Below the pieces are notes generated by a model that was given only the letters and a program-made list of their open reading frames with translations, searched no databases and was not told the origin of the DNA. Made by a program: the position numbers and the translations under genes. A DNA stretch of 64,000 nt from Podaxis mareebaensis (lineage: Eukaryota; Basidiomycota; Agaricomycetes; Agaricales; Agaricaceae): positions 1 to 64,000 of the forward strand of contig JAEUWP010000224.1 in assembly GCA_018524725.1 (NCBI GenBank), given 5' to 3'. Below, piece after piece: positions 7,778 through 31,985 of this stretch (positions within the stretch are counted from its first letter, which is position 1; every line of letters starts with the position of its first letter).

Positions 7778-7997
7778 TTGTGCCACTCTATTATCCCTTT
7801 CATTTCTGAATCAGAGTCCCCCACAAACTTGCTAGGGTGTGGCTTTTGGTAACACTATTTTATATTTCACTTCACATTAGCTCTTTTATTTGTTATATTC
7901 TATAGTAATCCATTTGCTGCCCCATCAACAACATTGCAATACTACATTCCAAGAAAACAAATGAACTCTGCACAAGGGCACAAGGAGGTGAGGGGAC

Positions 7998-9279
7998 TCA
8001 TGGGCCCTTCCAGACCCACCTTGATGAACCTCCTCCACGTCCCTCCAGATCCTCCTGTCGACACACCAGCTCAAGATCCCACATCATCTCCATGTTCCTC
8101 TCCATCATCACCTGCATTGCTTCCATTGCCTCTGTGTTCTGATCCATCACCTCCACTGTCCTATCCATTGAGTGCATGATGGTCTGCTGCAGCAACTGGT
8201 TTGACTTGATACCTTGCTCCAGAGTGGTCTGCAGATGGTCAATCACCTGCTGATTTTGGTTGTGCAACTCCTGCATCATTGCCAGCTTGTCAGAGAACCA
8301 CTCAATCATGGACCTGAGATATTTCATCTCCTGTGCATGTTGGTGGGATTGTGGAGACAAAGGGGACTATTGGATTTCATCAGCTTTCATTATTCTCTGC
8401 ATTGGATGCACTCACCAGGGATAGTTCCTGCCTGGCTTCTGCCTCCTCACACTGAGGACTCTTAATCGATATTGGAGCTGGCTGAGAAAATGACAATGGG
8501 GTCCAAGTGACTGCCAAAGAGCTTGACAGAGTCTGTGCCATAGAAGATGCAGGTGGTGAAAAGGCCGGAGACATCAACCCAACTGGATTTCCGAAGGCAC
8601 TCCTTCTGGAGCCCAACGCTGCTCCTGATGCTACAGACGACCCCCCAGTCTTCTTCCAAGGTGCAGGTGCTGCTGATGACCTTGTATCCCCAGCCAGATC
8701 ACACCCAACATGTCCTCTCTTGCACTCATTGCAAGCCATGCCCAGATACCTGTGACAGACCAATCCCTTCTCTGAGCACCTCTTACATGGCACTGGCAGG
8801 ATACCTCCCTCACCCACTCCTGAGCTCGAACCACCCAATCGTGAAGGCATGGATGGAACCACAACATGCAACATTGTAGGACCTGATGGAACTACTCATT
8901 GCAAACTCCATAACACCTGCTGACCAATTTGCATGCTCAGAGCTGGAGTACCTGGCCCCTCATTGTTGTCTTCTTCATCCAGACTCTCCACCCACTTACT
9001 CTTCGACTTCTTCTTAGTTGCCTCCCTCACAGCCACCTGACTACCTTCTGACTCTCAACAATGCTTGTTCACATCTCCGCTTTCACTCATATCGACTTCC
9101 ATAGCTGCCAGAGACTCGTCTGGGAACCTGAGCATCACATGTTGCTCTGGGGTGAGCTTGCTGAGGTCAACAGTGACTTGGCTGGGCTGGGAAGGCATGA
9201 GGGTATGAGGGGAAGGCTGGAACAAAAAATTTTTCAATGAGTTCCAACCCAGATACACATTCTGATGACTCCTGATCAC
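7998..9279 (-). CDS. Element 4 antisense gene: six-cysteine cluster and coiled-coil protein (decayed)
   Basis: Reads against the retroelement. The open frames are 9279-9055, 8874-8416 and 8366-7998. A cluster with spacing C-x2-C-x6-C-x7-C-x2-C-x6-C (CKRCSEKGLVC, then CNECKRGHVGC) lies at about 8787-8701, the spacing of fungal Zn2Cys6 domains but with fewer basic residues. A 49-nt intron, 8367-8415 (GTGAGT...ATAG), joins RQELSL to SPLSPQSHQH in frame. The C-terminus is a Gln/Met/Glu-rich coiled coil. Two TGA codons interrupt the N-terminal part, which otherwise reads through in one frame. The start is uncertain: 9279 or the internal Met at 9198. It is the counterpart of the intact gene in element 3. 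Function unknown. Confidence 0.6.
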
Positions 9280-9330
9280 TTAGGCTTCATTTCCGAGTCA
9301 GCTGCCTCAAGGCCTTGAGGGCTCAGCCTT

Positions 9331-9343
9331 AAGGGGGGAATAC
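9331..9343 (+). promoter_or_regulatory. Polypurine tract of element 4
   Basis: AAGGGGGGAATAC directly before the TGTCACAACTGC start of the 3' LTR; identical to the tract of element 3 at 26371-26383. Confidence 0.75.
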
Positions 9344-9471
9344 TGTCACAACTGCTCGCATGTGTCCACACTTACTTTCCCACACTTATCCAATGTCCAA
9401 AAATCTGATATCCGATGTTCTGATTTCGCATGACTCTGATCCACTCATTCCATTGATGGATTTCCATCCAC
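9344..9471 (+). repeat. Start of element 4 3' LTR, truncated
   Basis: Begins TGTCACAACTGCTC after the polypurine tract and ends where the LTR of element 2A begins. I see no second copy in the window, so the LTR call rests on the tract and the TG start. Confidence 0.55.
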
Positions 9472-18342: not shown

Positions 18343-18888
18343 TGTTAGGTTGGTCCTTATCACCAGTCACCTAAGCTTTGCTAGGGGGTGGCTATCTCAC
18401 TAGATGGTTCACAGAGGCGCTAGGATCTAGCAAGAAGGATCACGATAAGAAGGTGGCAAGGCAAGTGTCCAGTTAAGTACACTCAGGAGGTCGAACTTCT
18501 ATTAGTCGAGAGTGTGACCAATAGAGAGTTTACTACCACACTGATCATGAGTTAACGTCAATCCAGAGATAAAGCGAGAGCAATATTCTGAATTTAAGAA
18601 TATAGGAAGCTTGCACTTCCAGTACATGAGCAGCTATTTAAGCTTTACTTCTAAGGTCCTAATCAGGTAACTATGATGAAGTAATGCTACGAGTCCGAGA
18701 GTCAATAGAAGCATAACTACAGAGTGGAGCGAGACGAGAATAGAACTAAACAGGAATAGAAACTAGACAAGAAAAGGAAATTAGCTAGATAAGGAAACTG
18801 TTCAATACAGAGTTCAGGTGGGATACAGGAATACAAGGTGAAGCATCTGTAGTAAAACAGAAAGGAAACTATTTATGAGTTATATTAC
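18343..18888 (-). repeat. LTR shared by elements 2A (5') and 2B (3')
   Basis: 546 bp, starts TGTTAGGTTGG, ends ...TATATTAC where element 3 begins. The sequence following element 3 (aagtccatattgggg, from 27109) is the internal sequence expected next to a 3' LTR, compare aagtccatatcaggg at 10019. So this LTR served both copies. Confidence 0.85.
18884..18888. repeat. Target-site duplication of element 3, left copy
   Basis: ATTAC here and ATTAC at 27104-27108 flank the outer ends of the element 3 LTRs; joining them restores the element 2 LTR/internal junction. Confidence 0.85.
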
Positions 18889-19598
18889 TGTTACAGACTT
18901 CACTTCGTGTCCATTAAACTCTCAGAGCCTTGGTTACAACCTGGATTCTGTGGATCATATTCAGTTTAACCTTTCTTCCTTTTCCATCAGACCTTTCCCT
19001 TGCAAATACTTTTATCCATCCTTGTTCTTTCCGTCGTTTCCCTTATCAGATCTCCTTATCCGATCATCTCGTGTTTTTCTGTTTATCTGTGGCTTTTCCC
19101 TTTACCCTTGATTATCTCCCACTTATCTTGGTTTTTCCGTTATCTGATGTTTCACTTCCGCCCCCATCCTTTCGGACATCTGGACGCTTTGCAGACGGAC
19201 TCCTTATTCTGGTATCTTCACCGCGGTTATCAGTTCACATGTTTCTGGTATTCTCCTTTGAGTAGTTACTATTGTTTCTTGCTTAACTACTACTCTCGGG
19301 ACTTTATCCTGACTGCTAGTATATAAGTAGGATCACTACTGTTTGTAGTCCTCAGTCAGAATATCAACTTAGATCTTTCTCCTCTCTCCTGCTTGTCCAC
19401 TACAGGTCCACCCCTCGGTCCGGGCTTGTCCTGTCTTCGTCCATTCTCTGTCCGCTCGTCCACTCGAGTCCATAGTTGGTCAAGTGAGGCCATCATGGTA
19501 TCAGAGGGGTGCAACACATAAGTTGAAGCCAAGGCCTCAACCCCATGTCCGCCCTTGGCCACCCATGGTCCACCCCCGTCCAGAGTCAGTTCTTAACA
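18889..19598 (+). repeat. 5' LTR of element 3
   Basis: TGTTACAGAC...TCTTAACA. A TATA box, TATATAAG, at 19320-19327 is kept in the right LTR (26815-26822) and in the relic at 31725-31732, so it is the likely promoter core. In the first 330 bases I see 15 variable sites against the right LTR; 14 look like CpG decay. Confidence 0.93.
19320..19327 (+). promoter_or_regulatory. TATA box in element 3 LTR
   Basis: TATATAAG, conserved in three LTR copies in the window although neighbouring CpG sites have drifted. Probable site of initiation for the genomic RNA a few tens of bases downstream. Confidence 0.6.
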
Positions 19599-19639
19599 GT
19601 ATATTCTGACTCAGACCTCTGGTATCGTTCCAAATTTTT

Positions 19640-20986
19640 ATGCCATCTACGACACGTAGTGCTGCACAAGCTCAAGGAATCACCATTCCAGAACCTGTTC
19701 TCCCCCGCACAAATCATGAATTCTCTATGACTCCCACTCCATATCAATTTTCTTCCACCATGTCTTCTACAGTTACTGCCAAGTCCAGAACTCAAACCCA
19801 AACCTCTGCTGGGTATTCACAAGGAAATTCCAGTGGCCCTCCGGACCCCGGAGATGAGGGTGGTGGTGGTGGCAATGACCCTGGTGAGGATGATGATGAA
19901 AATCAAGACCCCCAGGAAATGTTAGCCAATGCTCCCGGCTGCCTCTCCTGTACCCTCCGTTCCTTGGAGTGTAGCAACTCCGTTGGCCCAGCAAATCCCT
20001 CTCGCGTGAAGGTCCAAGAACCCGACACTTTCGATGGTTCGGACCCTCTCAAAATTCGCCAATGGGTCTTCCAGTGCTGCCTCTATTTCACTTCAAATGC
20101 ACATCAGTTTGCAGAAGATTCTTCCAAAATCTGCTTTGCTATCACGTATCTGTCTGGCACTGCTCTTGACTGGTTCCAAACCATTCTCGGGTCCGAAGAT
20201 CTTGATTGGTCCAACCATGAGCTTCTCAACAACTGGGAAGTCTTCGTCAGAGAAATAGAAACCTGTTTTGGACTTGCAGACCCCACTGGAGAAGCTGCTG
20301 AAGAGCTGGACTCTCTCCGGATGGCTAGTAACCAACCTATCCTCAAGTATGACCTCGAGTTCAACCGCCTGGCTAGTTTGGTCGGGTGGCTGGACTCGGA
20401 CCTTTGCCATCGTTATTACAGGGGTCTTCCAGATCATATTCAGGACTTGATTGCCACTCAGGCAGAGGGTAAGCCCAACTCCTTGGACGAAATGAAAAGG
20501 GTCGCTAGTCTTATTGACCAATGTCACTGGGAGTGGCAGCGCGAGTGTAAGCATCATAGCAACTGCTCTGTGCAGCCCCCAAAGAATGACCCTAATCAGA
20601 AGAAACCCAGTAATTCGTCCAACAATAACAATAATCAGAAGCCTAACTCGTCCTCTGCCAAATCCCCTCCTAATTCCTCTCAGTCCGGCAATCGTCCGAA
20701 CTCATCCAGGAATGCTCCGAAGTCATCTCTGGGCAATAAACTTGGCCCGAATGGCAAGCTCACCCCCCAAGAACACCAACGTCGCTTTGACAACAACCTC
20801 TGTATGTTCTGCAGTGATGCTAACCATAGGGTAAACAACTGCCCACGCAAGGCGTCCAGATCTGGTTCTCCTCTGGGTTCATCTGCCTCTAATCAGAAGG
20901 CCAAAGGTCAGCAGGCTCAAGCCCAAGCTGAGGTTCCAGCAAAGAGCCCCTCTCCTTTGAACCCCCCGTTGGGTTCGAAAAAATAG
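19640..20986 (+). CDS. Element 3 Gag polyprotein
   Basis: An intact 448-residue frame, starting 42 nt after the LTR. It has an N-terminal low-complexity region with a Gly/Asp/Glu run, a retrotransposon capsid domain (about residues 115-300; KVQEPDTFDGSDPLKIRQWV, YLSGTALDWFQ, RYYRGLPDHIQDLI), an Asn/Ser/Pro-rich linker and a nucleocapsid knuckle CMFCSDANHRVNNC near residue 395. It assembles the virus-like particle and binds genomic RNA in known gypsy elements. The frame ends in TAG at 20984-20986 right after a run of six A, where pol continues in the -1 frame. No internal stop, in contrast to pol. Confidence 0.93.
   Translation: MPSTTRSAAQAQGITIPEPVLPRTNHEFSMTPTPYQFSSTMSSTVTAKSRTQTQTSAGYSQGNSSGPPDPGDEGGGGGNDPGEDDDENQDPQEMLANAPGCLSCTLRSLECSNSVGPANPSRVKVQEPDTFDGSDPLKIRQWVFQCCLYFTSNAHQFAEDSSKICFAITYLSGTALDWFQTILGSEDLDWSNHELLNNWEVFVREIETCFGLADPTGEAAEELDSLRMASNQPILKYDLEFNRLASLVGWLDSDLCHRYYRGLPDHIQDLIATQAEGKPNSLDEMKRVASLIDQCHWEWQRECKHHSNCSVQPPKNDPNQKKPSNSSNNNNNQKPNSSSAKSPPNSSQSGNRPNSSRNAPKSSLGNKLGPNGKLTPQEHQRRFDNNLCMFCSDANHRVNNCPRKASRSGSPLGSSASNQKAKGQQAQAQAEVPAKSPSPLNPPLGSKK
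20975..20986 (+). promoter_or_regulatory. Probable -1 frameshift site between gag and pol (element 3)
   Basis: In the gag frame the codons are TCG AAA AAA TAG. The pol frame, one base back, is open across this point (EKIEGSPQDSAQTGD) and leads to the protease. A slip of one base on the A run just before the stop would give Gag-Pol. It is not a perfect X-XXY-YYZ heptamer, and I did not find a clear downstream stem. Confidence 0.5.
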
Positions 20987-23900
20987 AGGGCAGTCCTCAG
21001 GACTCTGCACAGACTGGGGACTGCATTGAACTCGTCTGTGCTACAGAGAGTTTCCGACTCAATGCATCCACTCTTTCCAACCCTCATGCTCTTCACGTTT
21101 CCCTTTCTTCTCCATCTTTTGCTCCTTCGTCCGCCTCCAATCCGCCTTCGTCCGACGGTACTGTGACTGCCTTGGTGGATAGTGGTTCCACACATTGCTC
21201 CATTGATTCTTCCCTTGTTCGTGACTGCTCAATTCCTACGTTCCGTGTTGCTCCTGTAGAACTTCGACTTTTTGACAGCTCTTCAAACTCGTATATAACT
21301 GAACTAGCAAAAATCCCTGTTACATTCCCTACTGGTGAATCAATGACTTTAGACTTCTATGTCACTCGATTGGACTCGTCTTGCTCTGTGGTTCTTGGTC
21401 ACAACTGGCTCACCCACTACAATCCATTGATTGACTGGGTCTCAAACAGTATCTCTTTCCAGCCACAGCAACAAGTCTTTTCAACCCCTGCTCTGACTCT
21501 CCACACTGCGCTTTCTTCTGCATTTCCAGTTCATCCGGATCTGCCTTCCTCCACCTCTGATCTGGTCCCTCTGTCCTCTGCATCTGATTCCTCCGCTCCG
21601 TCCAATTCACCTCCGCTTTGTCCTCATATAAGCCTGATTGGCACTGCAGCCTTCCTGTGTGCGTCTTGCCTTCCTGGTTCAGTTTCCTTTACCTTCAACA
21701 TCCATTCTCCGTCTGTCTCCACTGGGTCCGCTCAGCCCTCTGAGCCCATCGATTTGTCAAACGTTCCCTCAGAGTATCACAAATTTGCTGATGTCTTCAG
21801 CAAGGTCCACACAGATACGTTGCCTCCACATCATCCATATGACCTTAAAATCAATCTGGAAGAGGGTGCTAGTCCTCCTATTGGGACCATTTACTCTCTA
21901 TCTCAGGTTGAGCTGGAAGTGTTAAGGGAATTTATTGATGAACACTTGTCCATTGGCTTCATTCGTCCGTCAACCTCTCCACATGGTGCTCCAGTCCTCT
22001 TCGTCTGCAAGAAAGACAGCTCTCTCTGCCTTTGTGTCGACTTCTGTGGACTCAACAAGATCACCAAGAAAGACCATTATCCCCTTCCCCTGATTTCCAA
22101 CCTCCTTGATTCTCCTCGCAAGGCTTGCATCTACACCAAGATAGACCTCCATCACGCCTATCACCTCGTCCAGATAGCCAAGGGAGACGAGTGGAAAACC
22201 ACCTTCCAGACCTGCTATGGGTCCTTTGAATGGATGGTTATGCCATTTGGACTCACCAACGCTCTGGCAGCCTTCCAGCGTTTCATGAACGACATCTTTG
22301 GTGATCTATTAGATGTATGTGTCACTATCTATCTTGATGATATACTGATCTACTCAGATGACATCTCCCAACATAAACAACATGTCCGGGAAGTCCTCTG
22401 TCGGCTCTGCAAGTACAGCTTGTGCACGTGAGTGGACAAGTGTGAGTTCCACTCAGAAGTGGTCAAATACCTTGGTTACATCTTGTCCCCGGACAGCCTC
22501 AAGATGTCCGAAGACAAAGTCAAGATCATTCAAGATTGGCCCGAGCCAAAGAAAGTCAAGGACATTCAGTCCTTCCTAGGTTTTGCTAACTTCTACCACC
22601 ATTTCATTCATGGTTATTCTGACATTGTAGTTCCCCTGACCCGTCTCACCCACAAGGGTGCTCCCTGGAACTTCACGGCAGAGTGTCGCGAAGCATTCAA
22701 GATGCTCAAGAAGGCTTTCACCATGGCTCCAGTCTTGACTCACTGGATTCCGGACTCTCAGATTATCGTTGAGACTGATGCATCAGACTATGCCCTGGCT
22801 GCCATTCTTTCCATCATTGCTCCTGACAGTGACATTCATCCCATTGCTTTCCATTCCTGCACTTTCAATACATCTGAATCTAACTACGATACTCACGACA
22901 AGGAACTTCTAGCCATCTTCGAGGCTTTCCACATCTGGCAACACTATCTTGAAGGCTCCGCCTTACCCATTGATGTGGTCACTGATCACAAGAACCTTGA
23001 GTATTTCTCTACTACTAAAGTTCTGACTCGTCACCAGGCTCATTGGTCAGAGTACTTGTCACAGTTCAATCTCATCATCCACTTCTGTCCTGGACACCTC
23101 GGGACAATACCGGACGCTTTGACTAGATGATGGGACATCTATCCTAAAGGGGGGAATAATGGCTACGCCACGGTAAATCCTCACAACTTTAGACCTGTCT
23201 TCACTCAAGAGCAACTTGTGGCCTCTGTCCAGGCCACCTCCCTCTTTTCCCCTTCCCTCCAAGCAGCCATGGTCCTTGACTATGAGCAGCTCCATTCTGA
23301 CATCCTTTCCACTCTCCCTTCCGATCCCCTTGCCGCTGAGCATATCTCTAACCCCCAAGGTTGCTGGTCCGTGGATTCGGACGGTTTCCTCTGCCTTGAC
23401 AACTGCATTTACATCCCTGACTCTAATGACCTCTGCTTGTGAGTCCTCCAGTATAAGCATGATCACATGCTTTCTGGACACTTCGGTCAGAACAAGACTC
23501 TAGAGTTGGTCCGCCATGACTACACCTGGCCGAACATCCGCTCCTTCATCAAGGACTTCTGCAAAAGCTGCATAACCTGTATGTGGAGCAAGTCACAATG
23601 TCATCGGCTGTACAGAAACCTCAAGCACCTCCCTATCCCAGATCACCCTTGGCATTCCATCTCTATGGACTTCATTGAGAAGCTCCCCAAGTCCTCCGGC
23701 TTTGATACCATCCTTGTAATCATCAACCGTCTCACCAAGCAAAGTATCTTCATTCTGACTCACAACACCATTACCTCCACTGAACTCACCTGCCTATTCG
23801 TCCTCCATGTATTCTCGAAGCATGGTGTCCCCTCTCATGTCACGTCTGATCACGGCTCCGAATTCGTCTTGCACTTCTTCCGGTCCTTGGGCAAGGCTCT

Positions 23901-24708
23901 GGATATGAAGCTGCACTTCACATCTGGATATCATCTGGAAGGTGATGGACAGACTGAGTGGACGAACCAGACACTCGAACAATACCTCTGAGTATATTGC
24001 AATTATCAGCAGGACAATTGGGCTGACTTACTTCCCATTGCAGAGTTTGCCTACAACAATGCTCCTAATGCTACCACCGGTGTCTCTCCATTCTTTGCTA
24101 ACAAGGGTTATCACCCTGCCATCTCTGTCCATCCTGAATGCGATCTCGCATCCGCCCAGGCCCGAGACTTCGCAGTTGACCTCAATGACTTACATTCTGC
24201 TCTCAAGACTGAAATCACCCAAGCCCAGGAGTGCTACCAGGTGTCCACAGATGCCCATCGTCTGTCCACTCCAGACTTCAAGGTTGGTGATAAAGTCTTT
24301 GTCAAAGCCCAGTTCTTCTGGACTACTAGACCTTCAAAGAAATTATCTGAGAAGTTCTTAGGTCCATACGAGATCATCGCTCAAGCTGGTTCTCATTCCT
24401 TTACCCTCCAACTTCCCGACTCTATGTGTGCCATTCATCCTGTCTTCCATGTTTCCATGCTCAAGCCTTCTACTCCCAACACCATTCCTAACCGTGCTGA
24501 ATATGAGATCGAGTGGATTGTGGATTCCAAGATTGACCGGCACCGCCAGACATGTCCGCTCCTGTACAAAGTCATTTGGGCCAGTTATGAAGGTACGGAT
24601 GAAGAGTTTAGTTGGCTGACAGCTAAGGAACTTGAAAATGTGCAAGAGTTGGTAGCTGACTTCCATGCCAGCTATCCTGACAAGCCTGGCCCTCTGTCTT
24701 CTCTCTGA
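20986..24708 (+). pseudogene. Element 3 Pol polyprotein (PR-RT-RH-IN-chromodomain-like), four TGA stops
   Basis: Frames: 21163-22431, 22432-23130, 23467-23991 and 24241-24708 are one continuous frame apart from TGA codons at about 22429, 23128, 23440 and 23989, each where relatives have Arg (LCT*VDKCEF, ALTR*WD, LCL*VLQYKH, EQYL*VYCNY). Domains: protease (TALVDSGSTHCSID), RT with YLDDILIY, RNase H (IVETDASDYALAAIL), integrase zinc domain (HFGQNKT, CKSCITC), core (SMDFIEKLP, HVTSDHGSEF, GDGQTEWTNQ) and a C-terminal chromodomain-like segment (about 24505-24680). SDHGSEF and TEWTNQ, usually SDRGSEF and TERTNQ, are further CpG-type changes. Confidence 0.92.
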
Positions 24709-24861
24709 CTTCTCTCATCTTGTTCTTACGTTCTCTAATTCTCTGATCTTGTTTTCTCATCTTATTCACTTTCTTGTTCACACTGATAGCAGCGCACTCA
24801 AGAAAACATCCATTCTACTAGGTCCAAAAAATTTTATATACATTCATAGGAGGCGGACCCA
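24709..24861. other. Spacer between pol and the antisense gene of element 3
   Basis: Pyrimidine-rich on the + strand with no gene. It would hold the 3' end signals of both the sense pol and the antisense gene, which meet tail to tail. Confidence 0.4.
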
Positions 24862-26256
24862 CTACTCCTCCTCTTCTCCACCTTTGGATCCGCCCTCCTC
24901 ACTTTCCTCACCTTCCTCCTCCTGTTCCCCACTTTCTTCCCCTTCTTGTTCTCCTTCTCCTGCTTCCTCTTCCAACCCACTTTCCTCTGCTTCTGCAGTT
25001 TCCTCTGCTCCACCCTGTCCCTCACCCGCCTCCATGTCCAATACCTCCATTTCCTCTCCACTCTCCATGGTGGCATCCACCCTCTCTGTTGCCTCCTCCC
25101 AGTCCGCTGACAGGTCTCGAGCCCGTGGCACATCCGTCTCTGAGATTTGGTATGCCCTTCTCATAAGGGCGTTCATCTCCTCTTGAACCCTTTGGAGGGT
25201 GGATATCTCCGTGGTCAGGGCACAGACGGCCTCTATGGGGGTCTGTGTTAGGTCTGTAAAGAGGGCCACCCGTTTTTTGCTCCAGGGGCCATAACAAGGT
25301 ACCTACCATACTCTAGGGTCAGCTTTCCACCAACCCCATCCTCCACATTGGCACTTACCATGCCGTGGAGAGCCCCCAGTATTCCAACCTTGGATTCTGT
25401 AATATCCTTACCCACCCGAGTAAATGGGTTAAGGATATGAGGTATGGGGCATTGTGGCCCCTGTGGATGCTCACGGTCCACCATTTCCTCTTGGAGGAAA
25501 GGCTCACACCATGACTTTTTTTGATAACACCCCGTGCAGGAGTGAATCTGATCCTCTGTAGAGACGTTTTCAGCAGCAATCAGCAAGTAGGCAAAATCAC
25601 TTACTTTCATGACGAACACATTTTATCCCCAGCTGGTGGCAGCGGAGACACAACTTGTCGCCCCCCATTTTGTAAGGGAGCTGTGCCCTTGAGCCCACCA
25701 GTCGGTCCATGATTTGGACCTCCAGGTCCTCACTCGGGTCCACCTCAACCTCGACAGCCTTTCCTTTACCCTTCTTTCTCCGCTGTGCCTCCGCCTCCAC
25801 CTCTGCCTTCTTCGCCTCCTCTGTCTGCCACTGCTCTTGTCTCCTCTGCTCCTCTTCCTCCTGTTCCAACCGGATCCGCTCTGTCTCCTCCACTTCCCTC
25901 TTGGCCCTTTCCTCCTCTTCCCTCTGTCTCCACTCGGCCTCTGCCCTCTCCGCTGCCCGCTTCTCCTCCTCCTCCAACTGTCTCCACTCTGCCTCCTCTG
26001 CCTCCCACCTTTTCCGTTCCTCCTCAGCTTTCTTCATTTTCCTCTTCTTCTTCCTTTCTGCCTTCCCCGCCGATGTCTCCACCTCTGCCTCTTCCGTCCG
26101 TCCTCGTTTCTTGCTCGGGCCTGCTTCCATGGCAGTGCCCTCATCAGTCACGGAGGTCTTCTTTGTCTTCTGCCAATTCTGATAGAAGGCAGTGAATGCT
26201 GCCATCATATCAGGATCAGCAGGGGGTTGGGACTGTGTGTTCTCGCATTGGGACAT
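24862..26256 (-). CDS. Antisense spliced gene in element 3: coiled coil and Zn2Cys6-like cluster, 430 aa
   Basis: Reads opposite to gag-pol. Exons 26256-25605, 25555-25307 and 25253-24862 total 1293 nt = 431 codons with no internal stop. Introns are 49 nt (GTAAGT...CTACAG) and 53 nt (GTAGGT...TTACAG). Residues about 60-175 form a long Glu/Arg/Ala coiled coil. Cys 203, 206, 213, 224, 227 and 234 give C-x2-C-x6-C-x10-C-x2-C-x6-C, and the first intron separates the third and fourth Cys, so only the spliced form has the whole cluster. The C-terminus is very acidic (Glu/Gly runs). The spacing is that of fungal Zn2Cys6 domains, but the basic residues expected between Cys 2 and 3 of GAL4-type domains are scarce, so DNA binding is not assured. 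The role is unknown; control of the element or of host chromatin is speculation. Confidence 0.8.
25254..25306 (-). other. Intron 2 of the element 3 antisense gene
   Basis: 53 nt, GTAGGT...TTACAG; phase fits, joining LEY to DLTQTPIEA. Confidence 0.7.
25556..25604 (-). other. Intron 1 of the element 3 antisense gene
   Basis: 49 nt, GTAAGT...CTACAG, with a CTGAAA-type branch region; joins CVRHE to KDQIHSC. An in-frame stop just inside the intron ends the unspliced frame. Confidence 0.75.
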
Positions 26257-26383
26257 TTTTTGTTTGAGTTGAGGGATGAAGCACGTTTCCTGAAGGTGCC
26301 CTTTTGTATCTGGCAGAGAGAGTTGAGGGCAGGTGTCCAGTCCAGACTTGGGCCTCAGAGGCTCGGCCCTAAGGGGGGAATAC
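26257..26383 (+). promoter_or_regulatory. Promoter side of the antisense gene and polypurine tract of element 3
   Basis: Only about 127 nt separate the antisense ATG from the 3' LTR, so its promoter must lie here or inside the LTR. The last 13 bases, AAGGGGGGAATAC (26371-26383), are the polypurine tract of the sense element. Confidence 0.6.
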
Positions 26384-27103
26384 TGTTACGGACTTCACTT
26401 CGTGTCCATTAAACTCTCGGAGCCTTGGTTACAACCTGGATTCTGTGGATTGTATTCAGTTTAACCTTTCTTCCTTTTCCATCGGACCTTTCCCTTGCAA
26501 ATACTTTTATCCGTCCTTGTTCTTTCCATCATTTCCCTTATCAGATCTCCTTATCCGATTATCTCGTGTTTTTCCATTTATCTGTGGCTTTTCCCTTTAC
26601 CCTTGATTATCTCCCGCTTATCTTGGTTTTTCTGTTATCTGATGTTTCACTTCCGCCCCCATCCTTTCGGATGTCTGGACACTTTGCAGACAGACTCCTT
26701 ATTCTGGTATCTTCACTGCAGTTATCAGTTCACATGTTTCTGGTATTCTCCTTTGAGTAGTTACTATTGTTTCTTGCTTAACTACTACTCTCTGGACTTT
26801 ATCCTGACTGCTAGTATATAAGTAGGATCACTACCGTTTGTAGTCCTCAGTCAGAATATCAACTTAGATCTTTCTCCTCTCTCCTGCTTGTCTGCTACAA
26901 GTCTGCCCCTCGGTCCGGGCTTGTCCTGTCTTTGTCCATTCTCTGTCCGCTCGTCTGCTCGAGTCCGTAGTTGGTCAAGTGAGGCCATCACGGTATCAGA
27001 GGGGTGCAACACATAAGTTGAAGCCAAGGCCTCAACCCCGTGTCTGCACACATCCACCCTTGGCTGCCCATGGTCTGCCCCCATCCGGAGTCAGTTCTTA
27101 ACA
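26384..27103 (+). repeat. 3' LTR of element 3
   Basis: 720 bp, TGTTACGGAC...TCTTAACA, preceded by the polypurine tract and followed by the target duplication ATTAC (27104-27108). Confidence 0.93.
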
Positions 27104-27930
27104 ATTACAAGTCCATATTGGGGTGAAGGTGTCCATTAGAAGAGTCAGAAGAGTAAGAGTTGGGAGACAAGGCAGAACTAGGAATAGGGAAGTTGCCTGT
27201 CGAGGGCAGTGAGTCAGGGGAATCTTCATGGAGGAAGATGAGGCTGCGGTGCAGGGATGATGACAATGATGATGATACATCGCCGGTGACATATGGTGGT
27301 GGATATGGAGGAGGATCGCCAATGGGTTCTTCTGGATTTGATTTGTCGATACCTGGAACATTGGAGTCAATGCTGTGGAGGGGCGGAAGCTGAGTACAAT
27401 GGGGAGGAATGGCTGGAGGCTCATCAGAGTTAGGATCGACATGGTAGACTTCTACTTCTCGAAAGTAGAATCCATGGGTGACTTTGTACTTGATGATGTG
27501 CAGAACCACTTCGGGTGGATACATCATGTAGGGGTGAAGGAATACAATGGGTTCTCCAGTGTAGGGGATCATCTTCCAACTGTGGGCCCAGGCGGAGTCG
27601 AAGTTGTTATGGATCGTTTGGACATATAACCCATCGGGATTGAAGACGTGGGTGAAGGGAGCATTCTCCCAAGCGATGCGTAGTATTTCTGTCATCATAT
27701 GGTCGGTCTCATAGAAGAGTGGTCCAGGCATTGGCCAGTCTTCAGAGAATAGAGATGCATGGCCAGGAAGGTGGCGATTGGCAAAAGCTTCATTGCAGTA
27801 GTGAGTTGAGTCTTCAGCTGGTATACCTGTATCTTGAGTGGTGGAGCGAGAGGCGTTTGGAAGTCCAAGCTTGTGGACTAACGCGTGATAAATGATGTTG
27901 CAGCAAGAGGTATCAGGCTGGCTCATAACA
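27104..27930 (-). mobile_element. Element 2B: fragment of a second copy of element 2 (accessory ORF C-terminus)
   Basis: Continues the element 2 internal sequence interrupted by element 3. The minus strand is open from 27965 to 27105; the part homologous to 2A starts at MSQPDTS (about 27922) and ends LHPNMDL with the stop in the shared LTR. It contains SLFSEDWP and ENAPFTHVF as in 2A. Homology to 2A stops at tcataac (about 27929), just before LTR_D. The rest of this copy (gag, pol, 5' LTR) is absent. The frame is still open, so it could have been lost recently or be under constraint. Confidence 0.85.
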
Positions 27931-27937
27931 TCCACCC

Positions 27938-28498
27938 TGTTACCCAAACAGGCAGGTGCACGCACTCAGTCGCTCACGACCACTGCAACAAGTGTTGTTC
28001 ATTTGCTTTTCCTTTATCATCTCAGATCCTTTACCCTTGCCTTGGTCCATTTGTTCCTTGCTTCTGTTCTACATTTTATTACATTCTGAACAGCCTCCTT
28101 TCCATTCTGCCTCCATACCTGTACCTTCCACACACTTCTAGTTCCTGCTTTACCTCTGAAATGTTTTACCCATTTGTACTCGCTTTTGTTCTCCAGTTAT
28201 TTTCCTGTTCCCCATTTCCAGTTCTCAATGCATATTTAAGCATAGTAGTTTCCTGTATCCATTTCCTCAGTCTGAATATCAACTTTGTTATCCTCCTCCT
28301 CCTCTGCTCTGCTCGTCAGTCCTCTGGGTCATCTTCTGACCACTCCTGCTGCTCATCTGCACTCTATCTCTTGTTCCTCCCACCTCTGGGTTCCACCTCT
28401 GTCCAAATCAGACCAACATGATACCAGAAGGGCACAGCACATAAGCTGAGGCTGAGGTCTGCTCCCTGATGCCCTAGGCACCCATCTGGAATGTAACA
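27938..28498 (+). repeat. LTR_D: solo or orphan LTR
   Basis: 561 bp, TGTTACCCAAAC...GGAATGTAACA. The 3' part (cagtctgaatatcaact, then cagaagggcacagcacataagct) resembles the same region of the element 3 LTR, so it is a related, different LTR family. No matching 5-bp flank is seen (caccc against ggagt), which argues for rearrangement rather than a clean solo LTR. I assign the plus strand from that similarity. Confidence 0.6.
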
Positions 28499-28581
28499 GG
28501 AGTAAGGTGTAGGCATTGGAGGTCTTTGGGAATTAGGCATGTGATAGACAGGATAGGGGAGGAAATATTATCTGATGAAGA
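28499..28581. other. Short unassigned segment between LTR_D and element 2C
   Basis: No gene or repeat recognised. Confidence 0.4.
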
Positions 28582-29981
28582 AGTGTTATGAACTCACCCC
28601 AGCCATCCCATACCAATATCATCTATCATACCTTCATTCATGAGCTTAGCCTTCCCAATGCCTCTGGAGGCACTACTACTGATACCAACAATTCCATCAA
28701 TGACTCCACATACTACTGCAATGAAGCTTTCACCAACAGGTGCCTTTCCAGACACATGTCCTTATTCTCTGAAGACTGGCCAATGTCCAGCCCCCTGTTC
28801 TATTCAACTGATAGGATGATGACAGAGATTCTATACATTGCTTGGGAAAATGCTCCCTTTACACACATCTTTGACTCCAATGGATTGTACATGCAAACTA
28901 TCATCAATAACTTTGACTCATCATGAGCTCACAGCTGGAAGATGATTCCTTATGCTGGAGAGCCAATTGTATTCCTCCATCCCTATATGATGTACCCACC
29001 AGAAGTTGTTCCTCATATCATTCAATATGAAGTCACCTATGGACTCTACTTTCAAGAAGTAGAAGTCTATTGTGTTGATCCTAACTCTGAGGATCCTCCA
29101 TCCATTCCTCTACAGTGTACTTAACTGCCTCCACTCTACAGTGTTGACTCCAATGTCCCAGGCATTGACAAATCACCTCCCAGTGAACCACCCAGCACTC
29201 TACCTCTGCCTCCTCCTTACCCATCTCCCTATGTCACTGCAGATGTCCTATCATTATCATCATTGTTGCAGTCACTGCACTACAGCCCAATGGTCAAGTC
29301 AGACTCTTCTGACTCCCCCCTGATAGGAAACTTTACTGTTCTCCACTCCAGCCCATCTCCTAACTCTTATACCTCCAATTCTTCTGATGGACAACTTCAC
29401 CTGGATTTGGATTTGTAGATAGTTCTCTTGTTTACTTCCTATTTCTCTCATAGACAATTAGTGCTACTTAGTTATGTCTCATCCTTCTGTCTCTTGAACT
29501 TATCCTGTTCTCACTCTGTACTATTCCAGACTTGTTCTATTTCTGTCTTAGTCTTGATCTATTCTTGGACTCAGTACTATTTCTATCTTGACTTCTATTC
29601 TGTAGTTATGATAGCTTCTCTTGACCCCTCTGAACCCTTAGTACTGCATTGTCATAGCTTCTAAATTTGGACCTTAGATGTAGCACTTAAATAGCTACCT
29701 GTATACTAGAAGCACAAGCTTCCAATATTCTCAAATCATAGCCTTGCTCTCTGCATCTCTGTAGTTGATGTTAGTTAATGATCAATGTGGTAGCAAACTC
29801 TCTATTGGTTATACTCTCAACTGATAGAAGTTTGACCTCTCAGTGGACTTAACTTGACACTTGCCTCACCACCTTCCTATCATTATCTTTCTTGGTAGAT
29901 CCTAGCACTTGCAAATCATCTACTGAGATAGCCACTCCCTAGCTTAAGCATAGGTGACTGGTAATAAGGACCACCTTAACA
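28582..29981 (+). mobile_element. Element 2C: inverted old copy of element 2 (accessory ORF end and 3' LTR)
   Basis: Plus orientation, opposite to 2A and 2B. 28588-28926 and 28942-29124 encode the same accessory protein: LFSEDWPMSSPLFY, AWENAPFTHIFDSNG, VFLHPYMMYPPEVVPHI. One TGA lies between the two frames, where 2A has TGG or CGG-like codons around WAHGWK. The DNA has almost no CpG, so this copy is much older, yet the protein sequence is still well aligned. The LTR follows at 29414. Confidence 0.85.
29414..29981 (+). repeat. 3' LTR of element 2C
   Basis: 568 bp, TGTAGATAGTTC...GGACCACCTTAACA; the reverse complement of the element 2 LTR in diverged form (for example AGGTGACTGGTAATAAGGAC). 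The ORF stop codon is again TAG inside the LTR start. Confidence 0.82.
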
Positions 29982-31695: not shown

Positions 31696-31985
31696 TACTT
31701 TCTGGACTTTATCCTGACTAGTAGTATATAAGTAGTACTACAGCTGCTTGTACTCCTCAGTCAGAATATCAACTTAGATCTTTCTCCTAACTGTCCTGTC
31801 TATCTGCTACAAGTGTGCTTCTCAGTCTAGACTTGTCCTGTCTTTGTTCATCACCTGTCTGCTTGTCCACTTGAGTCTATAGTTGGTCAAGTGAGGCCAT
31901 TACAGTATCAGAGAGGCACAACGCCTAAGTTGAAGGCAAGGCCTTAACCCTGTGTCTGCCCCCATCTGGACTCACTCTACCTGAA
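31696..31985 (+). repeat. Fragment of an element 3-type LTR
   Basis: From GGACTTTATCCTGACTAG through TATATAAG (31725-31732) to CATCTGGACTCACTC it follows the second half of the element 3 LTR; CpG sites are mostly lost. It marks the edge of the transposon block, about 200 bases from the first host gene. Confidence 0.75.

Follow-up and report, generated by a model that had tools for sequence, protein, structure and literature searches.

Within the stretch of DNA analysed here (the window, 64,000 nt, positions 1–64,000, to which all coordinates refer) a chromodomain Ty3/gypsy element was found to span positions 18889–27103 (Table 1). Its two LTRs, compared over 710 aligned columns, differ by 38 transitions and a single transversion, and transitions likewise dominate the decay of the whole element. 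In computed comparisons the end of the 3' LTR was taken as 27104. The pol frame matches the Pfam families RVT_1, RVP_2, RT_RNaseH, Integrase_H2C2, SH3_Tf2-1 and Chromo, with rve just below its cut-off, and it is interrupted by internal TGA codons at 22429, 23128, 23440 and 23989, the four stops that an earlier, sequence-only reading of this DNA had reported for the sense pol of this copy. The first 300 bp of the LTR (26384–26690 and 18889–19190) carry 1.1–1.6% transversions against 0.2–0.5% in the rest, and the two main LTR haplotypes are carried in this part. A further LTR fragment, 83% like the element's own LTR, is present at 31696–31966.

Between pol and the 3' LTR, on the opposite strand, lies a spliced gene (26256–24862, minus strand), referred to below as the antisense gene.

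Table 1 Features of the element and its antisense gene (window coordinates; strand relative to the window).
Feature	Position	Strand	Remarks
Target-site duplication ATTAC	18884–18888 and 27104–27108		flanks read by eye
5' LTR	18889..19598	+	aligned with 3' LTR
gag	19640..20986	+	Pfam Retrotrans_gag 2.3e-08, DUF4939 6.4e-10
pol frame (protease, RT, RNase H, integrase, chromodomain)	20989..24708	+	first codon approximate
Hypervariable segment	24750..26330		whole antisense gene and about 75–110 nt on each side, intron 2 excepted; transversion profile among copies
Exon 3, revised	24862..25302	-	VPCYGPWSKKRVALFTDL..., acidic tail, stop
Intron 2, revised, 56 nt	25303..25358	-	GT-AG in 18/18; the gene's most conserved block
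Exon 2, revised	25359..25555	-	cysteines 4–6
Six-cysteine cluster C-x2-C-x6-C-x10-C-x2-C-x6-C	25506..25650	-	split by intron 1
Intron 1, 49 nt	25556..25604	-	donor and acceptor in 20/20 sequences; transversions 0.163 per site
Exon 1	25605..26256	-	open frame; start codon, cysteines 1–3, basic and charged coiled-coil-like region (by eye)
TATA-like GATACAAAAG, candidate antisense core promoter	26301..26310	-	about 45–55 nt upstream of the start codon; recurs in 5' alignment (by eye)
3' LTR	26384..27103	+	last base fixed by target-site duplication, read by eye

The sequence-only reading had described the antisense gene as a three-exon frame of 430 aa with two GT-AG introns. The exons it gave do splice to an open frame of that length, and intron 1 stands as proposed: its splice sites occur at one aligned place in all 20 sequences (the window and 19 copies), the donor being GT in 19 and GC in L023 and the acceptor AG in 20, and its sequence is otherwise unconserved. 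Removal of this intron is indeed needed to complete the cysteine cluster, as it parts cysteines 3 and 4. The second intron had been misplaced. At 25254–25306, its first position, the GT is kept in 18/18 sequences but the acceptor AG in only 5/17 (window, L013, L014, L018 and L020), and this candidate was replaced by the intron 2 of Table 1, which reads GTAAGT ... CTGAC (14 sequences) or CTAAC (4) ... TAG and is exactly 56 nt long in each of the 18 sequences that reach it. With this revision the frame is preserved and the protein, now of 429 aa, gains the segment VPCYGPWSKKRVALFTDL, for which counterparts exist in other copies. In the 18 sequences that contain exon 2 uncut, its length is 197 or 194 nt. 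At the 5' end, an ATG occupies the aligned start place of the window in 7/20 sequences and elsewhere the alignment shows the start slightly upstream; an in-frame ATG is found near the 5' end, at varying places, in every sequence but L026. A 5' leader motif search gave one match.

Copies of the gene, constraint and relatives

A DNA search of the genome with the window's antisense gene disclosed 23 places, the window included. Sequences were retrieved for 20 of the 22 others, the remaining two, short fragments on contig 375, being covered later within longer loci. Because the copies were found through their DNA similarity to the antisense gene of the window, all counts cover gene-bearing copies; recruiting copies in this way makes high divergence harder, not easier, to find. 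Row L028 was excluded because it is unrelated past about the first 200 nt; several counts omit L023, L025, L027 and L028, which are truncated or unrelated, and of these L023 and L027 break off before intron 2. The element alignment comprised 16 copies, and the hypervariability figures derive from the ten copies with gag-pol in place. In L009, L010, L011 and L019 foreign sequence replaces the 5' part; these were excluded from the ten-copy transversion comparison, kept in the pairwise distance matrices, and used in the four-gamete test for the 3' part of pol and the LTR only. Transversions were chosen as the measure because methylation-type decay should not produce them.

Among the 20 loci retrieved, the antisense gene lies between the chromodomain and the 3' LTR in 15/15 copies with both flanks matched (type A below), which agrees with the location antisense between pol and the 3' LTR given for the window copy. 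The introns, antisense to the genomic RNA, had been expected to survive retrotransposition and are present in the copies. Cysteines 1–4 of the cluster are kept in 20/20 sequences and cysteines 5–6 in 19/19, so that all six are invariant in the copies reaching them and the cluster can be counted as part of the gene, as was proposed; the four non-cluster cysteines of the window protein are kept in 1/20, 10/19, 8/17 and 9/17.

Codon models (17 sequences, stops masked) gave omega values of 0.33 for all exons, 0.32–0.34 for exons 2–3 and 0.25–0.26 for exon 1, and a fit with omega fixed at 1 was worse by about 90 lnL units for exons 2–3 and by 149 for exon 1 (best of three fixed kappas). These models lack a term for methylation-type decay, and the omega values are if anything inflated, as the copies are partly decayed. 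For pol, omega was 0.64 among ten copies, with kappa at its bound of 50. Neutral dN/dS with random stops across copies had been named as evidence against the gene. Omega is clearly below 1, but stops do occur on the window's codon grid, in 17 of the 19 other copies (66 in total, 45 of them TGA); L014 and the fragment L027 have none, and L014 has one in exon 1 of its own frame. The stops were read as post-insertion decay, because they are mostly TGA and the decay of the whole element is dominated by transitions. A chance open frame is ruled out by the six invariant cysteines, the omega values, the conserved splice sites and the frame-keeping lengths of exon 2. Judged by its copies, the antisense gene is a genuine, spliced, element-encoded gene with exons under purifying selection.

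The six-cysteine spacing satisfies the Zn(2)Cys(6) pattern, C-x2-C-x6-C-x5..12-C-x2-C-x6..8-C. The antisense protein resembles the fungal Zn(2)Cys(6) regulators (PF00172) in its six cysteines and in its coiled-coil-like and acidic regions (by eye), but it has glycine at the place where DNA-contacting clusters of this kind usually carry a basic residue, and the revised 171-aa core matched Zn_clus below the cut-off (E 0.37, 11.4 bits against 21), so that the protein was not filed as a member of the family. The 430-aa form matched no Pfam family at E <= 1, neither TRP28 (PF04195) nor bZIP, and used as a query, with the earlier intron 2, it had no relative at E <= 0.001 among 172 candidates. A control protease-RT query matched 6085 of 7967 scored candidates at E <= 1e-20, with Trametes and Armillaria among the 120 listed; fungi were thus covered, while a word-based search can still miss fast-evolving proteins. 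From these names and from the size of the introns the host was inferred to be a fungus. The viral contigs searched gave no match, and a search of the PDB by sequence gave best E-values of 1.6 and 0.083, nothing convincing. Basic stretches, a charged coiled-coil-like region, the cysteine cluster and an acidic tail (by eye) together form an architecture suggestive of a nuclear regulator.

Of 339 candidates in an RNase H search, 150 were scored as matches, 42 with 70–100% identity. In elements whose RNase H is about 74–83% alike, other antisense genes occupy the same place; these were designated type B (L031, L032, L039, L041, L042 and, as a remnant, part of the window) and type C (L040). In both, the cluster is C-x2-C-x6-C-x7-C-x2-C-x6-C and an intron follows it (by eye). 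Of 26 places matched by a type C query, 18 lie no more than about 6 kb from a place of the RNase H search, which is on the opposite strand in 18/18 (by eye). One of two B/C proteins matches Zn_clus at E 0.015; protein relatives of types B and C at E <= 0.001 were absent among 7992 scored candidates, and a structure model of the type C protein had a mean pLDDT of 44.6, too low for use. When type A was compared with types B and C by profiles, only the clusters aligned, weakly (P 0.013, probability 3.4%), and common descent stays unsupported. Among L039, L041 and L042, the three closest type B copies, the antisense gene differs by 0.0044–0.0048 transversions per site, the pol end by 0.0046 and the LTR by 0; with L031 and L032 added the values are 0.010–0.015, 0.022 and 0.0035, respectively. 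The type B copies compared are thus not hypervariable, and the diversification described below is not general to these genes but was seen for type A only.

Several remains of these elements were observed in and outside the window. The type B remnant occupies 7928–9469, 80–86% like L031, L032, L039, L041 and L042, and its antisense six-cysteine gene (8398–9174, minus strand) contains two TGA codons. Less than 1 kb past the element's 3' LTR, a stretch at 27931–28501 is 88–91% like the LTRs of the same five copies, and beside it are two look-alike ORFs in opposite orientation, 27105–27965 (minus) and 28588–28926 (plus; by eye). In L043 an A-type pol, 90% like window 23266–24263, stops short and gives way to LTR-like sequence of type B; as it reads, L043 is a deleted, nested or hybrid copy. 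The L031 type B gene contains, slightly past its intron, a short tandem repeat coding NQNQQVI-like units.

Hypervariability, recombination and intron 2

Among the ten copies, third positions of the antisense gene differ by 0.102 transversions per site (0.085–0.117) and intron 1 by 0.163 (0.103–0.220), against 0.0064 (0.0040–0.0091) for third positions of pol, 0.0053 for those of gag and 0.0080 (0.0044–0.0125) for the 3' LTR. By third-position transversions the antisense gene is thus about 16 times more diverged than pol (10% against 0.6%). The edges of the variable segment are sharp, at about 24750 and about 26330, and the stretch 26331–26383, just 5' of the 3' LTR, has zero transversions. Positive selection alone was rejected as the source of the divergence, because it would not raise the divergence of third positions or of intron 1. 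Since both are raised, the gene versions must be old or faster-mutating, and not merely shaped by selection on amino acids.

The antisense genes fall into two deep groups, A1 (window, L009–L012) and A2 (the rest), and these occur in mixed combinations with two pol sites and several LTR sites. All four gametes with A1/A2 were found at 7 of the 8 transversion sites tested, three being found at 24637, and pol site 23928 with LTR site 26487 likewise gives four. For instance, the LTRs of L009, L015 and L020 are 0.00% transversions apart and their antisense genes 4.5–10.7%; conversely, L022 and L026 carry antisense genes 0.5% apart on LTR types that are 1.34% apart. The copies therefore behave as a recombining population in which one gene is older in diversity than its surroundings. 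Such an excess of old diversity at one gene would be a mark of balancing selection, with introgression from elsewhere as the main rival. LTR haplotypes were not tied to gene group (Mantel r = -0.22, one-sided P = 0.975, in matrices that include 5'-truncated copies), which leaves a version-specific LTR operator unsupported; given this free assortment, version specificity, if there is any, should reside not in the LTR but in the pairing of proteins, the host or the segment itself.

Intron 2 departs from the rest of the segment. Only 15/56 of its columns vary, compared with 41/49 in intron 1 and 55/66 third positions in exon 2; its transversions amount to 0.0107 (0–0.0215) in the ten copies, and no other stretch of 56 nt in the gene is as conserved (difference 0.066; next non-overlapping stretch 0.175). 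A genome pattern search with its commonest form, allowing up to 3 mismatches, gave 13 matches, 13/13 within known gene copies, and the reversed pattern, used as a genome-wide control, gave 0. That intron 2 is merely at background was rejected: its level equals that of the backbone, yet intron 1 and the third positions of the same gene differ by 10–16%, and within such a gene it must be held back or homogenised.

This conservation is probably due to regulated splicing. Retention of intron 2 would yield a truncated product in which the cysteine cluster is kept, the C-terminal part is lost and a short coding tail is added. On the antisense strand the 56 nt can form a hairpin in which a GU-rich stretch pairs with the branch region (window, z -2.4; commonest form, z -1.0), and such a hairpin would fit a role in splicing. 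It is also possible, though we would not bet on it, that this intron is conserved as an element of the DNA or genomic RNA (export, packaging, a binding site) or because it is coding when retained. Variation climbs directly past its 3' edge, a two-tier G-quadruplex pattern is present in 18/18 sequences, and the 111 nt around it fold better than shuffles on the sense strand (z -2.40; antisense z -1.93), all of which speaks for a role outside splicing; the 56 nt of the sense strand, however, fold no better than shuffles (z +1.0 and +1.4). As for coding on retention, the variable columns read through from exon 2 fall 5/1/9 on codon positions 1/2/3, a codon-like pattern (P = 0.001 for the exon 2 frame, 0.009 for any frame), but 9/18 third positions never vary, which is more than coding alone needs.

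A proposed control factor and alternative explanations

An element-encoded regulator is the preferred reading of the antisense gene, and a plausible one. On balance we favour a spliced, self-encoded control factor whose versions are kept diverse by selection and shuffled by recombination, and in which splicing of intron 2 is regulated. Transcription would run leftward from a promoter beside the 3' LTR. The resulting protein would be nuclear, would combine a zinc cluster, a coiled coil and an acidic tail, and would regulate the RNA or the copy number of its own element. The specificity of such a factor would most likely make rare versions advantageous; selection would keep many old gene versions in circulation, and recombination, e.g. 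template switching in reverse transcription, would move them among young backbones. Diversification far beyond the gene's own element is a pattern expected of recognition or immunity genes. If this holds, the retrotransposons of one genome would act as a recombining population whose control gene has balanced alleles. The most specific form of the proposal, an immunity-type locus in which a spliced antisense zinc-cluster gene has many old versions kept by rare-version advantage, is shuffled among near-identical elements and has its output switched by regulated retention of intron 2, is regarded, taken as a whole, as rather unlikely.

Introgression alone could explain the diversity of a real and functional gene, the antisense genes having been picked up from diverged elements, perhaps of other species, without any selection for diversity. 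Recombination within the family is shown above, Ty1 has likewise gained gag from another species (PMC7055915), and the type B genes are not hypervariable. Against this, nearly every backbone carries a different version, only L022 and L026 in the 16-sequence matrix being near the backbone level and the next pair standing at 2.4%. A full-length A-type gene on an old, diverged backbone was not found in the genome; only the short A-type fragments L028 and L029 adjoin LTRs that are 82–85% like the window's. Introgression as the sole cause is considered a possible but doubtful account.

A targeted, error-prone process that diversifies the antisense gene in each cycle would agree with a variable segment with sharp edges. 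It would be expected to leave a star of differences, but these form two deep groups with substructure; moreover, one gene version (L022, L026) sits on two LTR haplotypes, omega values of about 0.25–0.34 denote long selective filtering, and intron 2 is spared where intron 1 is not. Hypermutation of this kind appears extremely improbable. Hardly better placed is a role for the antisense RNA instead of the protein, through double-stranded RNA formed with the genomic RNA and feeding silencing. Complementarity is inherent to the arrangement, and plant antisense ORFs have been discussed in such a role (PMC7264820), but the open frame, the splice sites, the six cysteines and an omega well below 1 are constraints at the protein level, and we hold this explanation to be very unlikely.

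Comparison with known systems

Retroviruses and plant retrotransposons repeatedly carry antisense genes close to the 3' LTR. HBZ, a bZIP protein of HTLV-1, also has a spliced form. It and related retroviral antisense genes are placed like the present gene, antisense at the 3' end of a retroelement and near the 3' LTR (PMC11963269, PMC7264820). The predicted antisense protein differs in having no bZIP domain by Pfam (430-aa form).

Among plant and fungal elements, antisense ORFs between pol and the 3' LTR (aORF-3R) are described for maize Grande (gene23), rice RIRE2, Silene Retand (ORF4) and Botrytis Boty (PMC7264820, PMC11963269). Nuclear localisation and antisense transcription are reported for Grande, antisense transcription of Retand is given as weak, and the function of the plant antisense ORFs is called unknown (PMC7264820, PMC11963269). 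The Retand aORF carries TRP28, and the word "intron" does not occur in the main text of the paper describing it (PMC11963269). A figure legend dealing with elements of fungi and spikemoss also indicates an additional ORF of unknown function (PMC2864245). The present gene shares with aORF-3R its position, its orientation and its presence in most copies, and among the gene-recruited copies it is conserved as coding sequence, as expected of an aORF-3R. In contrast to them it has no TRP28, two conserved introns, one of which is conserved in sequence, a six-cysteine cluster, and a divergence far above that of its backbone.

A truncated regulator made by intron retention has its counterpart in the repressor of the Drosophila P element, a DNA transposon. 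That repressor keeps a DNA-binding domain; for the antisense gene, retention is a proposal only.

Among titles and abstract openings, a source that covers little of the subscription literature, no report was found of a fungal element with an antisense gene that is both spliced and hypervariable. The type A family offers a handle on such genes, with a gene under selection, an exon-intron structure defined from many copies, and a diversification far beyond that of its own element.

Comparable to the proposed control factor is the case of Ty1, whose mobility is limited by p22, a factor derived from Gag, and whose gag has diverged between subfamilies and moved by horizontal transfer and recombination (PMC7055915). 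Ty1 is likewise a fungal LTR element with a diverged, recombined segment linked to self-control, namely gag; there the factor derives from gag itself, whereas here it would be the product of a separate antisense gene, for which a role in self-control is a proposal.
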